Source: Urechis unicinctus
Lineage: Eukaryota > Annelida > Polychaeta > Xenopneusta > Urechidae
Length of the DNA stretch: 64,000 nucleotides
Assembly (NCBI GenBank): GCA_034190875.2
Contig: CM067345.1
Span: 26,814,415 to 26,878,414, forward strand
Direction: 5' to 3'
In this document: piece by piece, positions 2,931 to 60,841 of the stretch
How positions within the stretch are numbered: position 1 is the stretch's first letter
Layout: each line of letters starts with the position of its first letter
Position numbers and translations under genes: made by a program
Notes under the pieces: model-generated
Database searches by the model: none
Told to the model about the DNA's origin: nothing
Seen by the model: the letters and a program-made list of their open reading frames with translations, nothing else

Positions 2931-3424
2931 CGACTGGAGTCAGTGGCACGGCGCAGGCTCTAAATACATCCACCCCCAATTGTCAATAAGCTATGACGAA
3001 TGTTCAGCTGTCGCTCGAGGTGGGGTCTAACAGGCCGGCTGTGGCTGCTGGATGTTTTGTGTTGTGGACGGAGCGGTTTGAGCGTTGCAATGTAAGCAAC
3101 GCGGTGTAAGCGATGCGTACAACCAATTATTAGGACTAGTTCGAGCTGTTGCGCTATTCATTGGACTCTCAAAGCACGTTTCGAATCAATACTCAAGTAT
3201 TGAATATTGCCAGCTGAGCACCGAGCGCTCACCGCCAGATGGCGTTATGATCTCCATTAGGTGTGCCCCACCTGTAGACTGGACATGCAAGCGCGTGCAG
3301 TCGAAACTTGCTGTACTCATCCAAAACAAAAACAGACCACTAAGCTACGGGGCCAACCTAACGTACACAGATCATACCACACAAGTTCACGGGGCCAATC
3401 CAAACGAGGTCAAATGTAGCTGCC
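2931..3424. other. PLAC8 upstream region and lead-in to 42-bp array
   Basis: Sequence between the minus-strand PLAC8-like start and the minisatellite. It would contain the promoter of the PLAC8-like gene. A plus-strand open frame beginning with ATG at 3085 runs through here into the array, but its first 110 codons match no family I know. Confidence 0.4.
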
Positions 3425-40985: not shown

Positions 40986-42205
40986 TTGGATTGAATAAGG
41001 TTCTCACATTTACAGCAACCTGGCAACAACAGAAAGCATTGGTAATCCAATTATAATGTCAGGCATCAAGCGTTGACGTTGGTGTTTCACCAACTTGCTC
41101 GGTTAGCGTAGATGCAAGGGGGTGGACATCATCCAAATAATATGAACTCCTTCCTGAGATAATCGTGTTTACGATAGAAGGGAAAATTACATCTGACTGA
41201 GGGCTCGACTCGTTTCACTGATCTAGGAAGCCAGTGAGTCACATATGACCACCGTTGAATGGCGCGTACGATCAGCCACCGTATCAGAGGATAAGGCTAA
41301 ACAAATCAAGGCCCTAAGTGGTTCTCTTTAATCCTTAATCTCTTTAAATAAGTTCGGCACTTTAACCACTGAATGCCGACACAATTTCGGCTTTTGGTAT
41401 GGCTTGACCAAATACTGTCCGGTCGCTGTAATTAACATGACCTACTTCCATGTTATGATAACCGATCCATTGCAACATCAGTTGTTATTCACCTCCACTA
41501 TCAATCCTGCTGGTGAAGCCTGCTGGATATCCCCACCATTTGACCAAATATTGTCAATCACATTTGCACTATCTTTCTTCCAACACCTACTCAATTCAGT
41601 GCACTTTTTATCCGCAGAGTTATAGACGTTAGGTGTTCCCGAGTGTATATTATGTATTGAAAACAAGCATTCACTCCAATTAGGTCAATTGCCCTTTTTA
41701 AACTTGCCATGTTCCTTACTAATGTGTACACGATCAACAATGTTACGGGTGATTTAGCAGTTTCGTAAATCAGGTCTCCTGTTAATACGCTCCATCGACT
41801 ATCGACCTGCGCAGGAATATCCCTTGAATACTTTCAACGACTTCTGTCATCACAGGGTTATCAGACACAACCCTTTGTTCCCTTTAATTCTCATCAGCTG
41901 GTTCCATAGTTTTGACTTATTCACCCGATCAGAAATTTTATTCGGTATTTATGCTGTGTTTGTGCCATTTTTGTGCAATATTTGATTGTACAACAAAACT
42001 TTATCCTTATCTATCTGGCCAGTAGGCTTACTTATTCCTACCGATTGAGTTGTTCCATTTATTACAGGAACAACTTGTATAGGACCAGTATCAGTGCCGA
42101 CACCAGAGGACAAACCCCATACGAATGATCTTGGTGTACTTAACCGCTGATGTTGGCAGCCCCTTTATTCAGTTTCATTCTAGGCACGTCAGTCGAACGT
42201 TTCCA
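40986..42205. other. degenerate sequence, weak coding traces on the minus strand
   Basis: Minus-strand stretches near 41.48-41.75 kb read for tens of codons (SADKKCTELSRCWKKDSANV region) in shifting frames. This looks like decayed coding sequence of a large element. Family not recognised. Confidence 0.25.
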
Positions 42206-47875: not shown

Positions 47876-48034
47876 ATTTTTTTAGTGCGTCCCATCCCCC
47901 CTACCCCAGTTGTAACTCAGTTGTTTGTCCCATTTTCCCGTTTTATTTACCGCTAAATGCCAGAGCTATGGTACGATTGGCGTTATATCCACTCAAGTTG
48001 GAAGATATGGCGCTTGTCAATAACCCATTGAAAT

Positions 48035-48170
48035 CTCCTCTGGCGTGGTTATCTCCCCAACCACCACCCTCCTCTGGCGTGGTTATCTCCCCAACCACCA
48101 CCCCTCCTCTGGCGTGGTTATCTCCCCAACCACCACCCCTCCTCTGGCGTGGTTATCTCTCCCACCACTA
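48035..48170 (+). repeat. 33-bp tandem repeat
   Basis: Four units of CCTCTGGCGTGGTTATCTCC followed by CCAACCACCACCC, with degenerate copies to about 48225. Confidence 0.9.
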
Positions 48171-48300
48171 CCCCTTCACTTGCTTGGCTATATCCCCCAC
48201 AACTGCCCTCCTCTCACTTGGCTACATGGTCAGAGTAATAAGAGCAACGGTACCGATTGGTTGATCACACGCCATGTTGGTAATGTAAGAAACGCACGGA

Positions 48301-48494
48301 GAGTAGTATAGAAACTAGAGGTTGTGGTCCATCTCTACTGATCCATAATACACGTTAAAATATGGCTTACACAGGACTTTTGCTCCCTGCGCAAGTTTGC
48401 TGGTTTTTAGGGTGAGCTTCACGCGAGAAAAAGGCGGGTCGGATCCGACCCCAGACAGGCCCGACTGTTTGTTTGCAGGAAAATTAACGTGACC
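48301..48494 (+). repeat. left inverted repeat of 11.1-kb segment
   Basis: About 194 bp whose reverse complement recurs at 59247-59445. Shared landmarks in order are GAGTAGTATAGAAA, TTTTGCTCCCTG, TAGGGTGAGCTTCAC, GCGGGTCGG.TCCGACCCC, CCCGACT and AAATTAACG.GACC. The ends read AGTAGTATAG, compatible with the AG-type termini of Polintons. No target duplication is clear: CGGAG on the left against CGGAC on the right. Confidence 0.7.
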
Positions 48495-48810
48495 TTAAAG
48501 GTCAACTACAGCGATTTTCATCATTTCTTTATAATGTGTTTCAAATTGAAGATTAATAACTCATAAACCAACGGGGACCCATAATTCATTGCAACGGCAT
48601 GCATAAGTACTAAAAATCCACCGATTAGGTTTCGTTCGGAAGAAAATACGAAGCCATCTTCTCGATGCCATTTTGCCTCAGTTGGCCGCTAGGTGCACGT
48701 TGCGTGACGTCATTCCTGCTGCGCTGCCTCCAAGAGAATTCGACTGCGAGCGAGCGAGCGAAGTGAAAAACGATTGTTTGGATTTTAAAATTACACCGTT
48801 TTGACAAGCC

Positions 48811-49873
48811 ATGTCGTCTTCTGATGAAGTTTACGAGTCCCCATAGCATAACGTTGGGGCAAATCATGTCCATGACTATTTATTTGAGCCAATACGGACG
48901 GGAGTTGAAAAATCCAAGTCACACTACGAAATGACACCGGGAGCTCTAAGTCTAACTCAAGGGTCCGCTTCGGATGAAGAATCAACAAAAGATTTCGATG
49001 AATGGTAAGTTTTAGAATACCCTTCCCAAGCTTTATTGAACTATATTAACTGGTAAAAAATAATCAAATAGTACTTGGCTAGTGAATGTAGCTTTGTCAT
49101 TGTACCCTGAGCACATTGAATATTGTGGACAGATGTTTGCATGCAGTTTATAAAGTATTTTCCTTTTATATTCATTCGTTGTACCACAAATATAAATTTA
49201 CAATGACTCGTTAATTATTTATCTAACTTAGGTGTCATTACTGCATCCCAATGGACACAGCCACAGAAGTTTGGAGAGAGTGATGGCTCTAACGGAGGAA
49301 TGGACATGCATCACCAAGCATCCCAGATTCCTGGCTAGCTGCATGAATAAAAATGTGCTGGAAGTGTCCAAATTTGAATCTATTCAAATGGACAGACCTG
49401 TTGGAGATGAGGTCTCTACAATGAGTAAGTTAGCCATTATTGCTACCAAAAAGGATGGTTTGAGGTTGAACAATCATATTTATTACAAAGGGAACATTAA
49501 TTCCACTGTGTAAAATATTCAGTGTTCATATTGATGAACTACAATATATTTTACATAGCCAAGAATAACTAATGCCAGTTACATGAAATCCAGAGGCAGA
49601 GCTTACAATAAAATTATGAAGTGAGGGAATGGTTGACAAATGACAATTGTTTTTTTAACTATACAACTTATTTTAAAACCGTGGACAACTAATTGACATA
49701 TTGCTTCAGATTATTCAGGTATCTAGCTTACCGCCAGTTTACACTCTGAATATGGCACAGACTGGGCAAAAGAAAAAGGAAAGTGCTGGCAGCCTGTGTG
49801 GTAACAGCTGTTAGAAAATCGTTCCCTGACCCGGGCGGCAAATATACAGGTTATCTACAATGGAGCTGAAGAT
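48811..49873 (+). pseudogene. P2RX7 intracellular-domain-like protein
   Basis: Three exons: 48811-49004 (ATG, donor GTAAGT after GAATG), 49232-49424 and 49719-49873. The encoded pattern is that of the Cys-rich domain found at the C-terminus of P2X7 receptors and in many invertebrate stand-alone proteins. It has an acidic N-terminus (MSSSDEVYESP, then YLFEPIRTGVE), W-C-x2-C (WCHYCIPM), HPRFLASCMNKNVLEV, RYLAYRQF and VLAACVVTAVRKSFPDP. Faults are an in-frame TAG at 48844-48846, a frame change near 49265-49290, and another in exon 3. These proteins are common next to or inside mobile elements; the role here is unknown. It overlaps the 3' end of the minus-strand gene. Confidence 0.55.
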
Positions 49874-50790
49874 TTTTTGGTCAGGTTGAATCGACACCTG
49901 TGAGCACCTACGAGAAGATCCTTTTCAGGTTTCTCGTACTGGGAGGCAATAGGTGGTGGGACAGTCCTGTCATCTGCAAGGACCTCAGCAAGTCTGTAGC
50001 TTGGGTATTTTTGTCTTAGATCAAGCACCTGATGTACATAGTCTGAAGCAAATCAATGATATTCATATTTTATGATAGTCATATAATAAGTAAGTCATAT
50101 TATATGCCAATTTTTAATTGGGTAACAATGTTTGTGCAAATGAAACTTATTCAGGTTTTGGTAATAAATGTCAAAATAACATGTGTTTCATTTTAGATTA
50201 ATGCATGTTCACACCAAAAGAAATTGGTACTTTGACAGGCTTGGGATTTTCCCATACCTGAACATGTTCAGTGTTCTAATAGCACTACTGCCACTATCAA
50301 AAATCCCTGAAGCCATAAACAAATTCCCTGCGGGCATAGCTCCTGTAAAAAGTTGGCAATCCCACATCTTACGGTGTCCATTCATGCCGATTTGTTCAAA
50401 AGAAGCAAAACTGCCCCGGTATCTTTGATTCTGACTAGGGCCATCCTCCAGATCAACACCACTGTACATAAGCATTCTGTGAGCTAAATTTTTCTTCCAT
50501 CAAATAAAACCCTGTGATTACACTACAAACAAAACAATATTTACCTAACAGTTCTTCAAACGCCATGTCATCATCAGTTTCCATCTCAGCATCATCACTT
50601 CGTCAGTGAAGTCATAGTCAGGGTCAGTTTCCATCTCATCAACGCTGTCCACCAGTCCAACATATTCCTCCTGGGGCTCATATTGGGTGCCCCTGGTGAC
50701 ACTTTTTGTGAGATGGGCCAACTTGGGTACCTCTTGAATATTTCTTTATCCCAGGAAAGATAGAACTCTGTGTCTGTAGGGACTTGTCAG
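49855..50790 (-). pseudogene. transposase-like gene, convergent to P2RX7-like gene
   Basis: Minus-strand exons at 50545-50790 (acidic; EPQEEYVGLVDSVDEMETD, donor GTAAAT), 50258-50476 (acceptor TCACAG, donor GTATGG) and 49855-50042 (terminal, stop TAG). The middle exon reads KMWDCQLFTGAMPAGNLFMA, then SGIFDSGSSAIRTLN. From memory this resembles a segment of large invertebrate transposase-like proteins (W-x-G-x2-P-x-G-x6-A-x3-F-x-G pattern). The acidic exon changes frame near 50600. The terminal exon overlaps the last P2RX7-like exon by 19 bp on the other strand. Assignment is tentative; it is the best candidate for the element's own transposase. Confidence 0.35.
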
Positions 50791-51697
50791 CCATCTATGG
50801 TATCAATACAATAAGTATGCTATAATTTCATTCATCATAGCCTTTAAGGATGTAAATGTTTACAAATTGACTCATGGATACATACAACAGAAGTTATCCC
50901 TGCCAACGCATTTCATCATATATAATAATGCAGTTGCCTTGTGACACTCACCAAAACATTTGCCTGCACCCCTAATGACAAGTGAGAGCAAGCTTCATGG
51001 TCGGCAGACGGCAAGGCACCCGCCCCTGGTGTAGCAAACAGCGCGGACGCTGACAGGCAAAGTTTCTTCGCCTAGCCTAGGTCGGCAGTACTTGAGTGTG
51101 ACACCTCAGTCTGTAATTCACCACTGTCACTTGATTTATCTATCTGCTCAGCTGCCAATACCATTTCGGAGCCAAGGTTTCTTACGAAATTCTAGACTTT
51201 TGAGCAGCTCTGGGTCAGTCTCATAAGCACTTTTCTCGAAATGATCAGAACATAGAACTGTCGTATAACTATAAGGGCAGGACTCCAGTGTTTACGCTTG
51301 AACTTTTTCGACACCCATATGCGACCGCATATGTCTTTGAGGACCTAGAAACAAAAAAAAACAAAAAAAAATCACACGCCTGACTTCTCATTGTTCCGAC
51401 AACCAAACGCACAACAATAAGGCATAATCCACACCAAGAAACGCACCAGACCGTGAAGAAAGACGAGTTAGTCACACGCTGTCAACCAACCGGGAAGGCT
51501 AAAGATGGCGATGAATATTTGCAAAACAACCTGAATGACGTCACTGTACGGAAATTCACGAATTTTACCGAGCGGTATCTTGTCAGATTCGACGTGTTGA
51601 AATATACATTTAAAAATCATTTTTCTTAATGAAAAAAAGTGCGCAGTCACCTTATTATGTCTTCCAACGATAGTTGGAAGACATATTGGTTTAGCCA

Positions 51698-51700
<3 letters not shown>

Positions 51701-51737
<37 letters not shown>
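51701..51737 (+). repeat. T37 homopolymer
   Basis: Thirty-seven consecutive T; in a plus-strand reading it could be the reverse of a poly(A) tail. Confidence 0.95.
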
Positions 51738-51759
51738 CTCCAGTCAAGGTTTTTCGGGC

Positions 51760-53362
51760 TATTCTCCGGAACGGTTAAACATATCAACATGAAATTTTGG
51801 GGAATGATAGCACCTCAATCAACTTGAGACACAAGCGAAATGCGCAGTGTTTGGAGGCTTATGCGATCGTTATGTTTGGAGCTTATCGATCGATTTTTCG
51901 TCGATTTTTTCCCCCATTTTCTGTAACTATCTCCTCCTAACTACTGCAGTTACGAACATATGAGTTATATGGTAGTAACAAGCAATTATCGTAGCATGGA
52001 ATAGGCGAAAAAAATATTTGTTTTTACCTTTTGTACTTTGTATAATGACATATATTTTAGAGTACCTATCGCGATTTTTGCTACGAGTTATAAAGAAAGA
52101 CTCCTCGCTGATATCTCTGAAACGGCTGTATTTACGGACATGAAATTTTGTCAGTATTTAGAACTTGGCCTCGTGATAATGATTGTAACAGTATTTTTAG
52201 CATTCACAGTACAAAAAACAAAGTAAAAAAGACGATTAGTTTCAAGGTTTTCTACTGCAGCAGCTTAGCGGCAGGCTAACAGCAGTTCGTGTTTAAGTAG
52301 GCCAAACCTTTCGTAATCGACCAGAGCCTTGGCTGGGTTTGCATCGAGGAAAGATAGAACTCTGTGGGTAGGGGGTCAGCCATCATGGTAAACAATAAGT
52401 ATGCTATATTTCATTCATCATAGCCTTAAGGATATGTTTCAAAGCGGCAGCATTCATCGCTACAACAGAAGTTATGTATTGACTTGGTTAAGGGGTCATG
52501 TCAAAACATCTAAGCGGCAGCAGCTTGGTGCAAGGATCTTATAATAGTGCGCGTTACCAGCTATTATCGGTCCGTGTATATACTGTCTTTATGTCTCAGC
52601 GACAGTGTGCACTGGATGTCCCATTGCGGAACGGTTAAACATATCAACAGAAATTTTGGGGAATGATAGATCAAGTTGAGACACAACTGGCGATCCATTT
52701 GACGCGCATGCGCAGTGTTGGAGGCTTATGGGATCGATTTCGTGATTTTTTCCCCCCATTTTCTGTAAACTATCTCCTCCATAACTACTGCATATACGAA
52801 TATATAGTTATATATGTAACAAGCAATTATCGTAGCAGGGAATAGGCGAAAAAAATATTGTTTTTATACTTTGTATAATGACATATATTTTAGAGTACCT
52901 ATCGCGATTTTTGCTACGAGTTCTCTCCTCGCTGATATCTCTGAAAAACACGAAATTTTGTCAGTATTTAGAACTTGGCCCGTGATAATGTAACAGTATT
53001 TTTAGCATTCACAGTAACAAAAAAACAGTAAAAAGGACGATTAGTTTCAAGGTTTTCTACTGCAGCAGCTTAGCGGCAGGCTAACAGCAGTTCGTGTTTA
53101 AGTAGGCCAAATCTTACGTAATCGACCAGAGCCTTGGCTGGGTTTGCATTGACTTGGGTAGGGGGTCATGTCAAAACAGGCCAAACCTTACGTAATCAAT
53201 CAGCGGCACATTCATCATCGCTTTCGCGGTGTATTGACTTGGTTTAGGGGTCATGTCAAAACATCTAATAGCAGCTTGTGATCTTATAATAGTGCGCGTA
53301 CCAGCTATTATCGGTCCGTGTATATACTGTCTTTAGTCTCAGCGACAGTGGTGCATGGATCC
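51760..53362 (+). repeat. 0.86-kb tandem duplication
   Basis: Two diverged copies, about 51760-52620 and 52621-53362. Shared landmarks are GGAACGGTTAAACATATCAACA, ACTATCTCCTCC, GTAACAAGCAATTATCGTAGCA, TTTAGAGTACCTATCGCGATTTTTGC, AGCTTAGCGGCAGGCTAACAGCAG and CTATTATCGGTCCGTGTATATACTGTC. The second copy has several internal deletions. Part of the tail (CGTAATCGACCAGAGCC) occurs once more within each copy. Non-coding. Confidence 0.85.
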
Positions 53363-53448
53363 GGTGTATATATATATTTTGGTCACGATACCCTTTTAAA
53401 ACATAGAACTTAGGAAAAATAGAATAAAAAAATCTTTGTAGTTGACCT

Positions 53449-54480
53449 TTAAGCTATGGTATCAACCCCGTTCGCACCTAAGCACTGCTTTGAGTCAAAT
53501 GGGGAGAGCGACGCCTTGTTGAAAAGCTGGATATATATCTTGGGGCAGAAGTGTTTCTTTGTGAACAGAGACTCCATGTATTGGTTGTGGTGTAGGTACT
53601 TCTTTACAACAGCCTTCTTCACTCCCTTCGCCCTTTTACTATCAGACGTCAATCCTACGTCAGACATCAGGATTGAAAACAGGCCTACATGCTCCTTGAT
53701 AGACCTTCTTATTGGTGCTGGTGTGGAATGTGCGATCAGGTGAGTAGCTGCTGGTGTCAAGGTGGGTGAGGTCAGCCTGCATGTCTGTGTACACGTCAAC
53801 TGAGCGGATCTCAATAAGAAGCGGGTCCGTGTCTGTATATAGCGGACCCAGGTTGCTACCACATACACAGCAGGAGCTTGGAGAGGTCGAGTGTGCACAT
53901 GCCTACATATACCGGGCGGTTTAGCACTAGGCGAGTCTTGTGCATATGCAGAGCAGCCAGGTCGTCATCGAATACTTCGTGACGAGCATGTGTGGGACTG
54001 ACCACAAGCCTACGTAGTTTTTCCTCTTCGTCCGAGGCCCCATGAAATCTCAACGCCTTCAGAGACTCTCCATTGCCTTACTGAACACGGAGTTGTTCAT
54101 CAGCTTGTACAGGCCCTTCTCTAAGTCGCTGGTGGCTCTGATTAAATATGAGCGCTCAGTGTATCTTGGTAAGCCACATTCCCAGTGACAGGTTGAGCTT
54201 GAGATTCCTGTAGTGGATCACATACTTCTCTTTGTTGCGCAGTGGATCGACTGATTTGCCTGTAATTAGGTAGTACTCACGCATAGCGTCGTCGACATGT
54301 CCCTAGCGGAAAGGGCTGCTCATTGATGAAGTCTAGCTGCTCAGCTCTCTTCTTAGCCCATGCTGCCTATGCAGACTGACGCTGCTCCATCGCCATATCA
54401 TGGCGTTTACATTCCGCGTCAACTAAGAGAATAAGGGGCTGCTCCCAGAGAACGCTAGGGCGTTGACAAGGGTACCTCCA
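53449..54480 (-). pseudogene. Polinton/Maverick-type family-B DNA polymerase, C-terminal half
   Basis: Minus-strand sequence reads, in the correct order but in more than one frame, as the palm and thumb of a protein-primed PolB. Landmarks are [14 protein letters not shown] (about 54.22 kb), motif-B-like KLMNNSVFSKAMESL (about 54.09), LNRPVYVGMCTLDLSKLL (about 53.9), the catalytic YTDTD (53825-53839), KRAKGVKKAVVKKYLHH (about 53.62) and a final SPFDSKQCLGANG before the stop at 53449. The polymerase would replicate the element from a protein-primed end. Stops and frame shifts make it dead, and the N-terminal exonuclease half is absent. A second short copy of the extreme C-terminus (DPFDSKRWIA, plus strand, about 59185) sits inside the right inverted repeat. 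Polintons are virus-related transposons integrated in animal genomes. Confidence 0.75.
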
Positions 54481-54548
54481 TCAAGCAGCGCAATAGAGGC
54501 TATATTTGTTTTGCAAACTTACTTCACCATATCGACTGGTATAATCCC

Positions 54549-55298
54549 TTGTTTTCATTATCATGTCCATGGCCGTGGCTAGGGCGATGTCGGAATCCTG
54601 AGATTGGCGTAACCTATAGAGAAACAAGAAACAACTGCACCATGGTACAGCGGGTAGACGGACATTTTTCCACCAGTAACCCGGCAACTGATGACAAAGA
54701 TGCTGTCCAGCTGGTCAGGACCAAGATAGTTTCAATCGTGGACAGCGACATATGCGGAAGAATGACTTTTTATGCTGCGAGCCGGTTCGTTCAAGTTGAA
54801 TCAAATATGACCATCACAGTATTCACATGGCGGTCAAAGCCTTCAGGAAAAGGAGAAGGTGCCTATTTTAAACCTGGCCTCTGGAACTTCAAACTTATAC
54901 AGGAGACGTTTGCAGCTATATGTCTTAGTCTGAAAGTTGATGCTTTAGATGAGACTACTACCCTCCCAATTCCTGATGGGACTGTACCCCGGGGGGGGCA
55001 CTTGGCCTTATTCTGGATAGGGGTGTGCCGCGGGACCTCGAAAACCCGTACCCGTTGTACATGGTCAAAATGGCCAAAAGCATACCCCGTCGTACAAGGT
55101 ATTATGCAAATGTATAACCTGTCGTACAGAATGAAGCTGAAAAACATACCCTGTCGTACAAGTATGAGGCCCAAAAACCCGTCGTACAAGTCGAGAGCCG
55201 AAAAAACATGCCCCGTCGCGCGGCACATATATACTACCTCTATACACTTAAGTGCCCCCCCCCTGGGGACTGTACAAAGTGACGATAGAGTGTTTTAA
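54549..55298 (+). pseudogene. uncharacterised coding segment split by a MITE
   Basis: Open plus frame of unknown product, divergent from the polymerase remnant. The coding-like part (54620-54987) reads LVRTKIVSIVDSDICGRM, FVQVESNMTITVFTWRS, then YFKPGLWNFKLIQETFAAIC. A MITE interrupts it after IPDGTV, and a few codons (QSDDRVF) follow on the far side, in frame after the duplicated target. By position inside the Polinton-like segment it could be a structural or accessory gene of that element, but no domain is recognised. Confidence 0.35.
54988..55267 (+). mobile_element. G-tract-ended MITE, copy 5
   Basis: 280 bp, full-length, with 8-bp target duplication GACTGTAC at 54980-54987 and 55268-55275. 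Left end CCCGGGGGGGGCACTT and right end AAGTGCC...CCTGGG; five CGTCGTACA-type boxes inside. Confidence 0.88.
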
Positions 55299-56965
55299 AA
55301 TGTTAGTTCTTCATAACTGTCTGGGGGGAGAATGGCTTCCTTTGGGTACTTACAAAGGTGACCGCCCATCAAATTTAGAATCTTAAGCCCACTTTATATA
55401 TATCTACATCAAGTCAGTACCATGCACAACATGCTCAATGGGGTCCCGTCACTGAAGCCCCTCAATACTATTTGGGCAGTAAAAAAAGAGGTACATTGGT
55501 TAAGGGAATGCACAAGTGGTCATTTGGTGATAGTACCAGTGGTGTTGACCATGAATATCCTATGCCATTACCGGGCCCAGTTTTGCATATGGGGCCATCA
55601 ACTAGTCCGAGTGGATGGCCAGCCCTTTTATGTGTAACTATTGTTGTTAATAGATATTATGCAACCAAGCCAAGGAACGATCATTGTGGCATTCAATATT
55701 TGACACACCTCTGGAGGTGGCTATGGAAGACGAAATCAGTTTCAGAACACGTGGGTCATCTAAGTCAGTAGTTTCAACATTAACTGAACTTGTAATTTAA
55801 GAAAATAGTTATAAAGACACCAACTACACCTAGTATTTACTCAGGGCTGCCCCTACCAATAAAAATTCAGGGCACTCCTATCGGTTGAATGAAATCAGCA
55901 ATACCTCAAGTAAGAGGTCACAAAATATGCCCAAATGAAGGGAAGAAATTAAGTTTTATTAGGTGTATATCAGCCTGTGAAAGACGTTTCCGACAATATT
56001 ATCGTCCATTGATGTCATTTTGTGGGTTTTTTTCAGTAATTCCATCGATTTTTCGGACCGTTTTGGCATATGCGCAAAAAACGACGGCCATTGGCTCTTT
56101 GGTTTGTGACGTAATATGTCACCGTTCAGCCAGATATCCTCGTTTGTTTACATGGAAACTTTGGTAGGTGTGAGCATAATCGTAGTTCATACCGTCATCA
56201 TCTACATCATATACCACAACGAATCACACCATTTCATACCATTTCATGTGGCTTGGAGTACTTGTTCGTCTAGAATATATTAAATTGTGACAAACATCTA
56301 TTATGTAGTTTGAAAACGTCAACCAAAGGGGACCGAGCGTTAATACAGGCAGTCCTGGAACACAGAGATGCACCTCGATTTCATGCCCGTTTCCTGGTTA
56401 TCAATGATTGATTCACCATTCGTCTTAGGCAAGGCACTCGCCCCATGTTTTTTGATGATCTGATGCCACCTTAGGGGCGAGTGGCCGTATGGCAGAATCT
56501 TTAAGGATGTAAGCAAATATACTCCCTCTCGCAATGCAGACAAGGGACAGTTTAAATAATATACATTTTCATATCCATAAATGTTTCATCATCAATCTTT
56601 CCTAGAGTGCAACAATAGTCATACTCCTTAATCAACAGAATCAACGAAATCCAACACAATTTTAAGAATTGTTGTCCATCATGGCTACCGCGCGAATCGA
56701 AAACGTGAGCGATATCACAGCGAATTAACTAAATTATGTTTCATTGTGGGAGTCGGCCATGTTGAGTTTTTGAACAAAGTTTCTTGATGTGCCGTATTTT
56801 AGTGCTCAAACAGAACAATTATACAAAACTGTAGTAATAGCAACAGTCCTCGTGTTATTTTGTGATATAACCTTCCATTTTGTCAAAAACAATTTGGCAT
56901 GGAGGGCTTTTGTAAGTTTTTAGCGAGTTCATCTGTCATTTTGACTTCGGAGCCTTAGAAATTTC
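55276..56965. other. unassigned part of the 11.1-kb segment
   Basis: Several short interrupted plus frames (around 55.42-55.77 kb). Nothing clearly recognisable. Part of it should belong to the second P2RX7-like element whose gene begins near 56.97 kb; a CRE-like TGACGTAA lies at about 56107. Confidence 0.3.
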
Positions 56966-56969
56966 TCCT

Positions 56970-57690
56970 CTAGAGCTGTGAATGTTCTTCTCACCAAGAA
57001 GAGGAACTAGGAGCCTGTGGTGGCATACAGCCATTCAGGTTTGAGCCTCCAGCTAAGACAAGGCCAATAAATTCTCCTCAAATAGAAGAGGACTTGAGCC
57101 GACTGGGTAACAGCACTTATTTCAATCCAAACAATTTGAAACCATTTGCTGATATTTTACTCTTTATTTTACAGTTGTCCTTAAGTCTTGCTTGAAGTCA
57201 TCTTCTTATTCATGTTTTATGTCAATTTAATTTTTTTTGGGCTGTAAAACTAGTAATTCATTGTAATTATGCCCTGTACTAGGTGCTCATGTGGGCCAAT
57301 GCTTACAATAGCAGAGAGTAAATGCTGTCATGAAATTCCATAGGTTCTCAAGAAAGTAAAATCTATGGGTGTGGCCTGTATAACAGCACACCCAGTATTT
57401 GTCTCTGGGTGCCTGCGTCCCCAGTCACTAGAAATAGCATATAGTGCTTATTGCCAGAGGTACAAGACGAAACTGAATGAAAAGCTGAAAAGATCTTTTT
57501 AAATTACAGGTTGTTCCAATTCATGGCATATTGGCAGTTGGTAGAGTGGTGATGGGGGTATCTAGGCAGACATCGCAGAGTGCCACTGTCAGCCTGTGTT
57601 GTTCTAGAAATAAGAGAAGTTTTTCCCAAGGACGAATCAGTTTATGTTGGTTTCAAACTGCCAACATTGAAATAATAAAGGGACAAAAAA
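56970..57690 (+). pseudogene. second P2RX7 intracellular-domain-like gene
   Basis: Three exon-like blocks in the same order as the first copy: ELGACGGIQPFRFEPPAKTR to DLSRLGN (57005-57110), CSCGPMLTIAESKCCHEIP to HPVFVSGCLRP (57292-57490) and a block with FMAYWQLVEW, WGYLGRHRRVPLSACVV and EIREVFPKDESVYVGFKLP (57515-57680). Two nonsense codons stand at family-typical positions: TAG at 57341-57343 after CHEIP, and TGA at 57550-57552 between two Trp codons, where other copies have Cys. It is dead and more diverged than the first copy. It lies in the inner part of the 11.1-kb segment and may mark a second inserted element ending near TTAA at 58692. Confidence 0.6.
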
Positions 57691-59246
57691 GCACAATGTA
57701 TTATTCTGTTATTTACATTAAGCTTTGCTAAAAAATATTAGAACCTATAGATGATACTACACATTGATGACAACCAGCAACAAAATTCAGTCAAGTGCTG
57801 TCCACTTAATTTATTAAAATGATAGGAAGCATCAATTCCAAAATCATGACATACCTGTAGGACATATGCATCTTTTTCCTGTATCTTACATCTTTTACAA
57901 AAAAATGCTGTATCACTCAAATAACGGTATGTTAACAGTCATTCACTTTTTGGCAGGATATTTTATCCATCCTGTGTCATTGCACAGCAATCATCGTGAT
58001 TGAATTTCGTAGGCACATTATACAAGTAATGCTTATTCAATTCTGCTCGCAGCTACCAAAAATGTCGGATTCTTATTCACTTGTCTGTTATAATGGAAAT
58101 GGCAAAATATATACAAATTTGACAGTAGGCCAGGGCTGAGCAATTTGTATTGCCCGATGACTGTCTAGGATGAGTGCAAGCTACTGTCAGGCAAGCATAC
58201 ATCTACATATAGCAGCCTGACGAGACATATCTATATTTTATCTGTGGAACAGCCTTATAAAACTTGAATCACTCCACACTGATCACTACCGGCCATGTCA
58301 ATTTTGTCAATTGGCAAGCGCAAATTCTGACCACTTTCTCAAGCGGACAAGCGATAGCTAGAGTTCCAGTACTGAAGACAGGCTACCGATATGTAAATGA
58401 CTTAACTTAATTGTCTACGAAGGAGGATTATAGCTTAAAACCCCTTTTCCATATATTCCACCACAGATGAAACGTCTCAAAAGGCAGCATTCCGACGCTG
58501 CGTCCGTGGCAACATCTTCAGGTGACATATGACGTCACAGCGCCTTCGTTCATCTTTGGCGTTTGGTCGGAAAGTTCCGGAATGTGTTGTTTGGTTTTTT
58601 TTATTTCTTGTTTTCTACAAGTCGGATCAAAAAAGAACTGAAAGAGCGTTCTATATGAGCCCGAAAATTCCTATTTTAGCCATTACTTGCCCTTTAAGAG
58701 AGCTTCTACACCGTCAAGCGGACTGTGAAAGATATAGACCCACCTCAATACACAGAGTGATTTCATTGCGCGACTTTTTATTCGCTGTATATACCTGTCT
58801 TTTGAATAAACGAGGGTGTTAGGTATACAATAAACACTGAAGAGTGTATTGGCGAGCTTGAAGGTTGTGTGAAAGAGATGGAGTTAGATATAGATTATCT
58901 GAGTGATGAGATGCAGGCCACGAGCTTGTGTAATGGGTAATAGGGACCCAGGAGTAGATAAATGAAGTTTCTGTATGAAATGAACGGCACTGTAGAAGTG
59001 CTTCCGTAGTAAATATACATAATAGTATAAACAATGGGGGAAAATGTGCCATTAGAAAGTGACTAAGAATGTGTGTAAAAAAGTTCGTCTTTCCTACAGG
59101 CAACTTTTAAATACAAAAAAGGCTGCAAAACCAAAGGCCAAGGGCTCCTCAGCGCCAAAGAGAGCTCTCCATGTAACAAAACAGTCATAGATCCGTTTGA
59201 CTCAAAGCGATGGATAGCCGTGAATGAAGTTGACAACTGAGTCAAT
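57691..59246. other. unassigned; includes polymerase-tail fragment
   Basis: Mostly non-coding. TGACGTCA occurs near 58530. Plus strand 59165-59240 carries a DPFDSKRWIA tail matching the polymerase C-terminus next to the right inverted repeat. TTAAAGGGCAAGTAATGGC, read on the minus strand ending at 58695, looks like a TTAA-type transposon end; no partner found. Confidence 0.35.
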
Positions 59247-59445
59247 GGTCCCGTTAATTTGCCGGCAACCTATGTGGAGGAGTCGGGTCCCTTGGGGGTC
59301 GGACCCGACCCGCATTTCTCTCCAGTGAAGCTCACCCTAAATACAACAAAAGTTAACAGGGAGCAAAAATCGATGTGCTGTATTAGCCATGATCTAACGT
59401 ATAGTAGGGATAAGTAGACCAGAACCGCTACTTTCTATACTACTC
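59247..59445 (-). repeat. right inverted repeat of 11.1-kb segment
   Basis: Inverted partner of 48301-48494; see there for shared landmarks. The homology continues inward into the polymerase C-terminal sequence, as on the left after removal of the TTAA element. Confidence 0.7.
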
Positions 59446-59544
59446 GGACTCTTGGGGTTGCTTATGGAGAATGCTAGTGGCGCGCTTTTGGGGAGTGCTA
59501 GTAAAGTTGGACTCTTGGAGGCGCTTTTTGGTAGCGCTTATGGG

Positions 59545-60534: not shown

Positions 60535-60841
60535 CTCGGGTGGGGGGGGGGGGCACTTGGCCTTATTCTGGATAGGGGTGTGCCGCGGGACCTCGAAAAC
60601 CCGTACCCGTCGTACAAGGTCAAAATGGCCAAAAGCATACCCCGTCGTACAAGGTATTATGCGAATGTATAACCCCTCGTACAGATTGAAGCTCAAAAAC
60701 ATACCCCGTCGTACAAGTATGAGGCCAAAAAACCCGTCGTACAAGTCAAGAGGAAAAAAAAAAAAAACATACCCCGTCGCGCGGCACATATGTACTACCT
60801 CTATACCATTAAGTGCCCCACCCCCCCCCCCCCCCCCCGGG
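60535..60841 (+). mobile_element. G-tract-ended MITE, copy 6
   Basis: 307 bp, with 8-bp target duplication AGGTCGAT at 60527-60534 and 60842-60849. Nearly identical to copy 1 inside, with a longer A run (60752-60767) and long G and C end tracts. Confidence 0.9.

Follow-up and report, generated by a model that had tools for sequence, protein, structure and literature searches.

A probable Polinton/Maverick relic invaded by smaller transposons in the genome of Urechis unicinctus

Introduction

Among described mobile elements, those closest to the locus reported here are the Polinton/Maverick group and, for a transposon nested within it, Kolobok. In the excerpted text of a study of vertebrate Mavericks, intact copies are given a 6-bp target duplication, and 96% of 3,511 loci are reported to be without coding capacity (PMC8097293). 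Excerpts of two other sources state a 5-6 bp duplication for the Polinton/Maverick group (PMC8547959) and a value of about 6 bp as typical of rve integrases, with one 5-bp example (PMC12220804). Kolobok transposons are described, in the excerpt of their source, by TTAA duplications, 5'-RR...YY-3' termini and, in the Kol0 group, a P2X7-ballast/KolX domain (PMC9587614). The same excerpt mentions a few piggyBac families that encode a protein resembling the C-terminal part of the P2X7-ballast domain, so the termini, and not the domain, carry the Kolobok distinction (PMC9587614).

The window analyzed here is the whole stretch of 64,000 nucleotides at C4:26814415-26878414 in the genome of the annelid Urechis unicinctus, which was searched as 1.19 Gb in 926 contigs. 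It contains, between 48302 and 59444, what is very probably an old Polinton/Maverick, reduced by internal deletion and invaded by smaller transposons. As in the vertebrate Mavericks of the excerpted account, the window copy has (AGT)2//(ACT)2 ends, long inverted repeats and a family-B polymerase, and a related copy on contig C3 also carries an rve integrase and ATPase- and capsid-like genes (PMC8097293). Unlike an intact Polinton/Maverick as that account presents it, the window copy amounts to about 3.15 kb, and searches of it revealed no remnant of the integrase, ATPase or capsid genes (PMC8097293).

Results

Inverted repeats bound the element, as a sequence-only reading of this DNA had claimed. 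The left repeat (48302..48494, plus strand) and the reverse of the right repeat (59194..59444, minus strand) are identical at 149 of 186 aligned positions (80.1%), with a local alignment score of 139 compared with at most 24 for random window segments (n=297), and the termini read AGTAGT...ACTACT, the Maverick-type end motif. The length of 0.19 kb given in that reading is true of the left repeat as cut by the insert, but not of the family. Among the best 40 of 530 candidates listed for a 315-base right-end query, 18 terminate at query 248-253, indicating a family repeat of about 250 bp (about 251 bp at the window's right end), of which the outer 193 bp were left when the TTAA insert shortened the left copy. 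The left repeat does stop exactly at a TTAA-flanked insert, with TTAA at 48495..48498 and again at 53449..53452. It had further been proposed that the same polymerase tail adjoins the repeat on both sides; tblastn finds it at both, but the tail belongs to the inverted repeat itself, because in this family the repeat includes the terminal part of the polymerase gene. On the left, the tail of the polymerase remnant doubles as the inner part of the repeat, and on the right a match to residues 1136-1164 (59175-59261, E 0.005-0.006) is weak alone but lies within the alignable repeat. The right-hand tail is more plausibly a mirror copy contained in the repeat. A right-hand gene using this tail was considered and rejected: codon-position differences over 87 bases between the window's right end and four other right-end copies were nearly even (7-5-6, 7-5-7, 7-5-9 and 7-6-8), giving no indication of selection on a coding sequence; two of the four, L016 and L033, look like mutual duplicates. 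Directly outside the left end, at 48033-48206, lies a 35-bp tandem repeat (CCTCTGGCGTGGTTATCTCCCCAACCACCAC and neighbours).

A related young family has seven inverted pairs among the matches listed, whose outermost matched pieces lie 13.9 to 16.3 kb apart (three of the seven include an outer piece other than the terminus itself). Its copy on C3, which represents a related subfamily and not the window's own, has outer ends 16,065 bp apart and end repeats of 644 bp at 99.7% identity. The polymerase of this element, read over 1,165 residues, matches DNA_pol_B_2 (Pfam, E 1.2e-17); rve and YqaJ are likewise above the Pfam cut-off, with Pox_A32 (21.7 of 22.8 bits) and Capsid_N (22.8 of 24 bits) slightly under it. 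Long inverted repeats, a target duplication, PolB, an rve integrase, and an ATPase and a capsid at sub-cut-off scores are found together in this copy, and relatives with more Polinton genes, which the sequence-only reading had suggested searching for, do exist. In PHROGs, the integrase of the C3 element gave four weak matches (three annotated as transposase and one without known function); four other proteins gave none. A genome search with the PF03175 profile returned 91 scored matches from 630 candidates; long open frames hold many of these matches, and 14 control genomes gave none. In many listed copies of the abundant young family, the opening bases of the end repeat align at a separate place, or extra pieces (query 491-578) lie outside the main match, which indicates that the outermost part of the end is variable among young copies.

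When 17 proteins of the C3 element were used as queries, three had matches at E <= 0.01 within the element of the window: the polymerase, a small gene adjoining the integrase, and the gene R5. Their remnants keep the gene order of the C3 element. The polymerase remnant (53452..54257, minus strand) is the C-terminal quarter of a family-B DNA polymerase, broken by frameshifts and stops over three tblastn frames; residues 840-1158 of the 1,165 residues read of the C3 polymerase (L006) match 54257-53452 at E about 1e-29 to 1e-33, so the protein-primed family-B polymerase is present in the window only as this broken piece. At about 54240 it is joined directly to the small-gene remnant (54240..54423, minus strand; tblastn residues 37-104, E 8e-12), where a copy on contig C6 has 694 more bases; a CAG is shared at this junction. 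The R5 remnant (54744..55451, plus strand; tblastn E 4e-9 and 2e-7) is interrupted by a MITE-like element. The right-end interior (58744..59193, plus strand) is also a Polinton remnant, judged by blastn to C6 (L040 946-1108) and C9 (L042 9239-9965). With the C3 proteins as queries, the window element gave no match at E <= 0.01 to the rve integrase, the packaging ATPase or the capsid genes; lacking an integrase match, it is regarded as the deletion relic of a Polinton and not as one able to move. A Pfam scan of ten window fragments gave no family above the cut-off; its single match, to Coagulin (E 0.083, 13.2 of 25 bits), was judged to be chance. Another Pfam scan, also of ten fragments, yielded zero families. 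By subtraction, Polinton-derived DNA comes to about 3.15 kb, including 55452-55950 as a putative part, and is made up of the ends together with a broken piece of the polymerase C-terminus and two small remnants of other genes. The core of 5.9 kb estimated previously was too large, as about 2.75 kb of other dispersed repeats had been included. Outside the element, at 42015-42158 (minus strand), a match to the C3 gene R6 (60% over 48 residues, E 7e-12; DNA 85% over 113 bases) is probably a fragment of another Polinton.

A sibling of the window copy lies at C6:29882934-29894586. In other copies, the interior adjoining the end repeat is of two kinds, similar either to the polymerase side or to the right side of the window copy, and the 11.65-kb sibling has both kinds of end in the window's order and orientation, with homologous interior on either side; end repeats with different neighbours elsewhere, named beforehand as the observation that would count against a single element, were thus not the pattern seen there. 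The sibling retains matches to ATPase, capsid-like and other genes, its polymerase match begins at residue 698, and no integrase match was found in it with the C3 proteins. Together with the AGTAGT...ACTACT ends, the 80% repeats and the polymerase remnant, this collinearity bears out the assignment to Polinton/Maverick that had been made from a family-B polymerase within AGT inverted ends. The short core had been ascribed either to internal deletion or to a compact relative. The former is favored, the window having no integrase, ATPase or capsid matches as against the related family of 13.9-16.3 kb with its gene-rich C3 copy, and the same family, with its length and additional Polinton genes, speaks against the latter.

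It could also be hypothesized that the window copy belongs to a non-autonomous Polinton family that is short by nature and was mobilized in this short form by proteins of another element. The sibling on C6 is likewise missing the integrase and the polymerase N-terminus, so integrase-less related copies exist more than once. However, the parts that are missing differ, as the sibling matches capsid-like, ATPase and other genes of which the window has none, and holds about 0.7 kb more at the polymerase junction; moreover, no second copy with the window's junction at about 54240 was seen among the loci compared. A short family is therefore an improbable explanation, and internal deletion of a Polinton is preferred. 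That two unrelated dispersed repeats face each other by chance can practically be dismissed: many end copies are single among the 40 listed matches, and some are members of a tandem array on C17, but the left and right ends are two distinct kinds, and the collinear C6 copy, with the window's order and homologous interior on both sides, already contradicts it.

The flanks of the window copy read CGGAG at 48297..48301 and CGGAC at 59445..59449, a putative target duplication matching at 4/5 positions; the expected 6-bp duplication was not there. The flanks of the C6 copy, TGTCA and ACTCA, match at 3/5. For the related family, six listed inverted pairs and the C3 pair were considered, seven in all, of which three without one end motif were left unscored; of the remaining four, three are flanked by exact 5-bp duplications (GATGG, GCCGG and TATGG), GATGG being found at both flanks of the C3 element, and one matches at 4/5 (CATGT and CAAGT). 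The related family thus has 5 bp where the excerpted account of vertebrate Mavericks gives 6 bp (PMC8097293). Given that values of 5-6 bp have been published, a 5-bp target duplication is not new. Weighing against the Polinton reading are the imperfect matches at the window (4/5) and C6 (3/5), the window fragments without a Pfam match above the cut-off, the integrase, ATPase and capsid queries that found nothing in the window element, and the membership of C3 in a related subfamily and not the same one.

The insert that cuts the left repeat occupies 48499..53448 (plus strand) and is 4,950 bp long, of which 1,715 bp belong to a nested repeat. Its termini mirror each other (AGGTCAACTACA...TGTAGTTGACCT), with AG...CT as the outermost bases. 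Within the insert family, 39 other matches listed of 941 candidates have 97-99% identity over the first 362 bases, and TTAA precedes eight of nine other family copies. The nested sequence (51652..53366, plus strand; 2,608 candidates) is an abundant dispersed repeat in the form of a tandem dimer, with boundaries set by comparison of copies (L081-L087). Without it, the window insert measures 3,235 bp, compared with 3,240-3,299 bp in six family copies paired by both ends. The claim of a TTAA-flanked insert is therefore sound in its outline, but the insert is itself split by this repeat. P2RX7_C was above the Pfam cut-off in two of four insert-family fragments (L074 and L076), in the same region of two copies, and was not matched in the window's own fragments. 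In a PDB search, the best matches of L074 were to P2X7 (E 0.07-0.22); window fragment 49232-49510 gave one adhesin match (E 0.35), which was taken as chance. The Pfam scans gave no transposase match in the fragments of the window insert and its family. Because TTAA duplications, RR...YY ends and a P2X7-type domain, here P2RX7_C, go together in the excerpted description of Kolobok, the insert is considered Kolobok-like on sequence grounds (PMC9587614). It shares with Kol0 elements carrying KolX the TTAA duplication, AG...CT termini and, in two family copies, a P2RX7_C fragment, and differs from the Kolobok of that excerpt in its nested 1.7-kb repeat and in giving no transposase match in the fragments scanned (PMC9587614).

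Alignment at the insertion site shows uninterrupted sequence in 19 of 28 other end copies, these 28 being the 30 left-repeat matches taken from the 40 listed (the best of 196 candidates), minus the window's own two ends. Copies without the insert, sought on the suggestion of the sequence-only reading, are thereby found, although the 19 cannot be counted as independent cases: a single tandem array on C17 accounts for five, three further pairs (two on C17, one on C9) are each 20-27 kb apart on one chromosome, and several of the 19 are tandem or segmental duplicates of one another. The array, at C17:16069230-16078982, has five right-type Polinton ends in the same direction, 2.39 kb apart, and it seems that a Polinton end was incorporated into tandemly repeated DNA there. 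Same-direction end pairs 20-27 kb apart are seen on C9, C11 and C17 among the matches listed. Direct terminal repeats were rejected for the two C17 pairs, in which the 20 bases outside are the same or differ by one base, suggesting segmental duplication.

Two other invaders can be recognized in the relic. A MITE-like element of 280 bp with an 8-bp duplication (GACTGTAC), read in the sequence, lies at 54988..55267. This element is C-rich, and a second copy, 92-94% alike, is found at 60546-60824, 5.6 kb away and outside the relic. Between 55951 and 58698, about 2.75 kb with TTAA at both edges consists, from genome matches, of other dispersed repeats and is not Polinton; of 70 genome matches, none except the window covers the whole stretch, and its edges recur among the matches at query 301-302 and 3046-3049.

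Discussion

Taking the end structure, the collinearity with C6, the detectable gene remnants and the similarity of the insert to its family as the observations, an order of events can be proposed in which the living element would have worked as other Polintons are thought to. In an intact relative, a protein-primed polymerase would copy the element from its long inverted ends, and an rve integrase would insert it. An old Polinton/Maverick may have integrated at this site, probably with a 5-bp target duplication. Internal deletions would then have taken away the capsid/ATPase block, the integrase and all but roughly the last quarter of the polymerase, and the surviving genes would have decayed. 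The MITE-like element, the roughly 2.75 kb of other dispersed repeats and the young Kolobok-like transposon would have inserted into the relic, with the Kolobok-like insert itself split by a tandem repeat. Mobility of the relic on its own is not to be expected. With a K2P distance between end repeats of 0.23 in the window (0.17 in C6, 0.003 in C3) and an insert at 97-99% identity to its family, the relic looks old and the TTAA insert much younger, as far as sequence divergence indicates.

Copies differ in where the inverted repeat ends on its inner side: the repeat measures about 250 bp in many of them, about 389 bp in C6, whose right end also matches the last 88 polymerase residues, and 644 bp in the C3 element of the related subfamily. 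A boundary that differs among copies, in a repeat that reaches into the polymerase gene, would fit a process in which the sequence of one end is copied over that of the other, perhaps in the course of replication, carrying the polymerase tail to the opposite end of the element. This idea is tentative and rather unlikely to be right.

Altogether, the window copy is an ordinary decayed Polinton of a known kind, in line with the degraded state reported for most vertebrate Mavericks in the excerpted account (PMC8097293), and nothing about it is unexpected. Old decayed and young, nearly identical Polintons coexist in this genome, which could help to date Polinton activity in the lineage.
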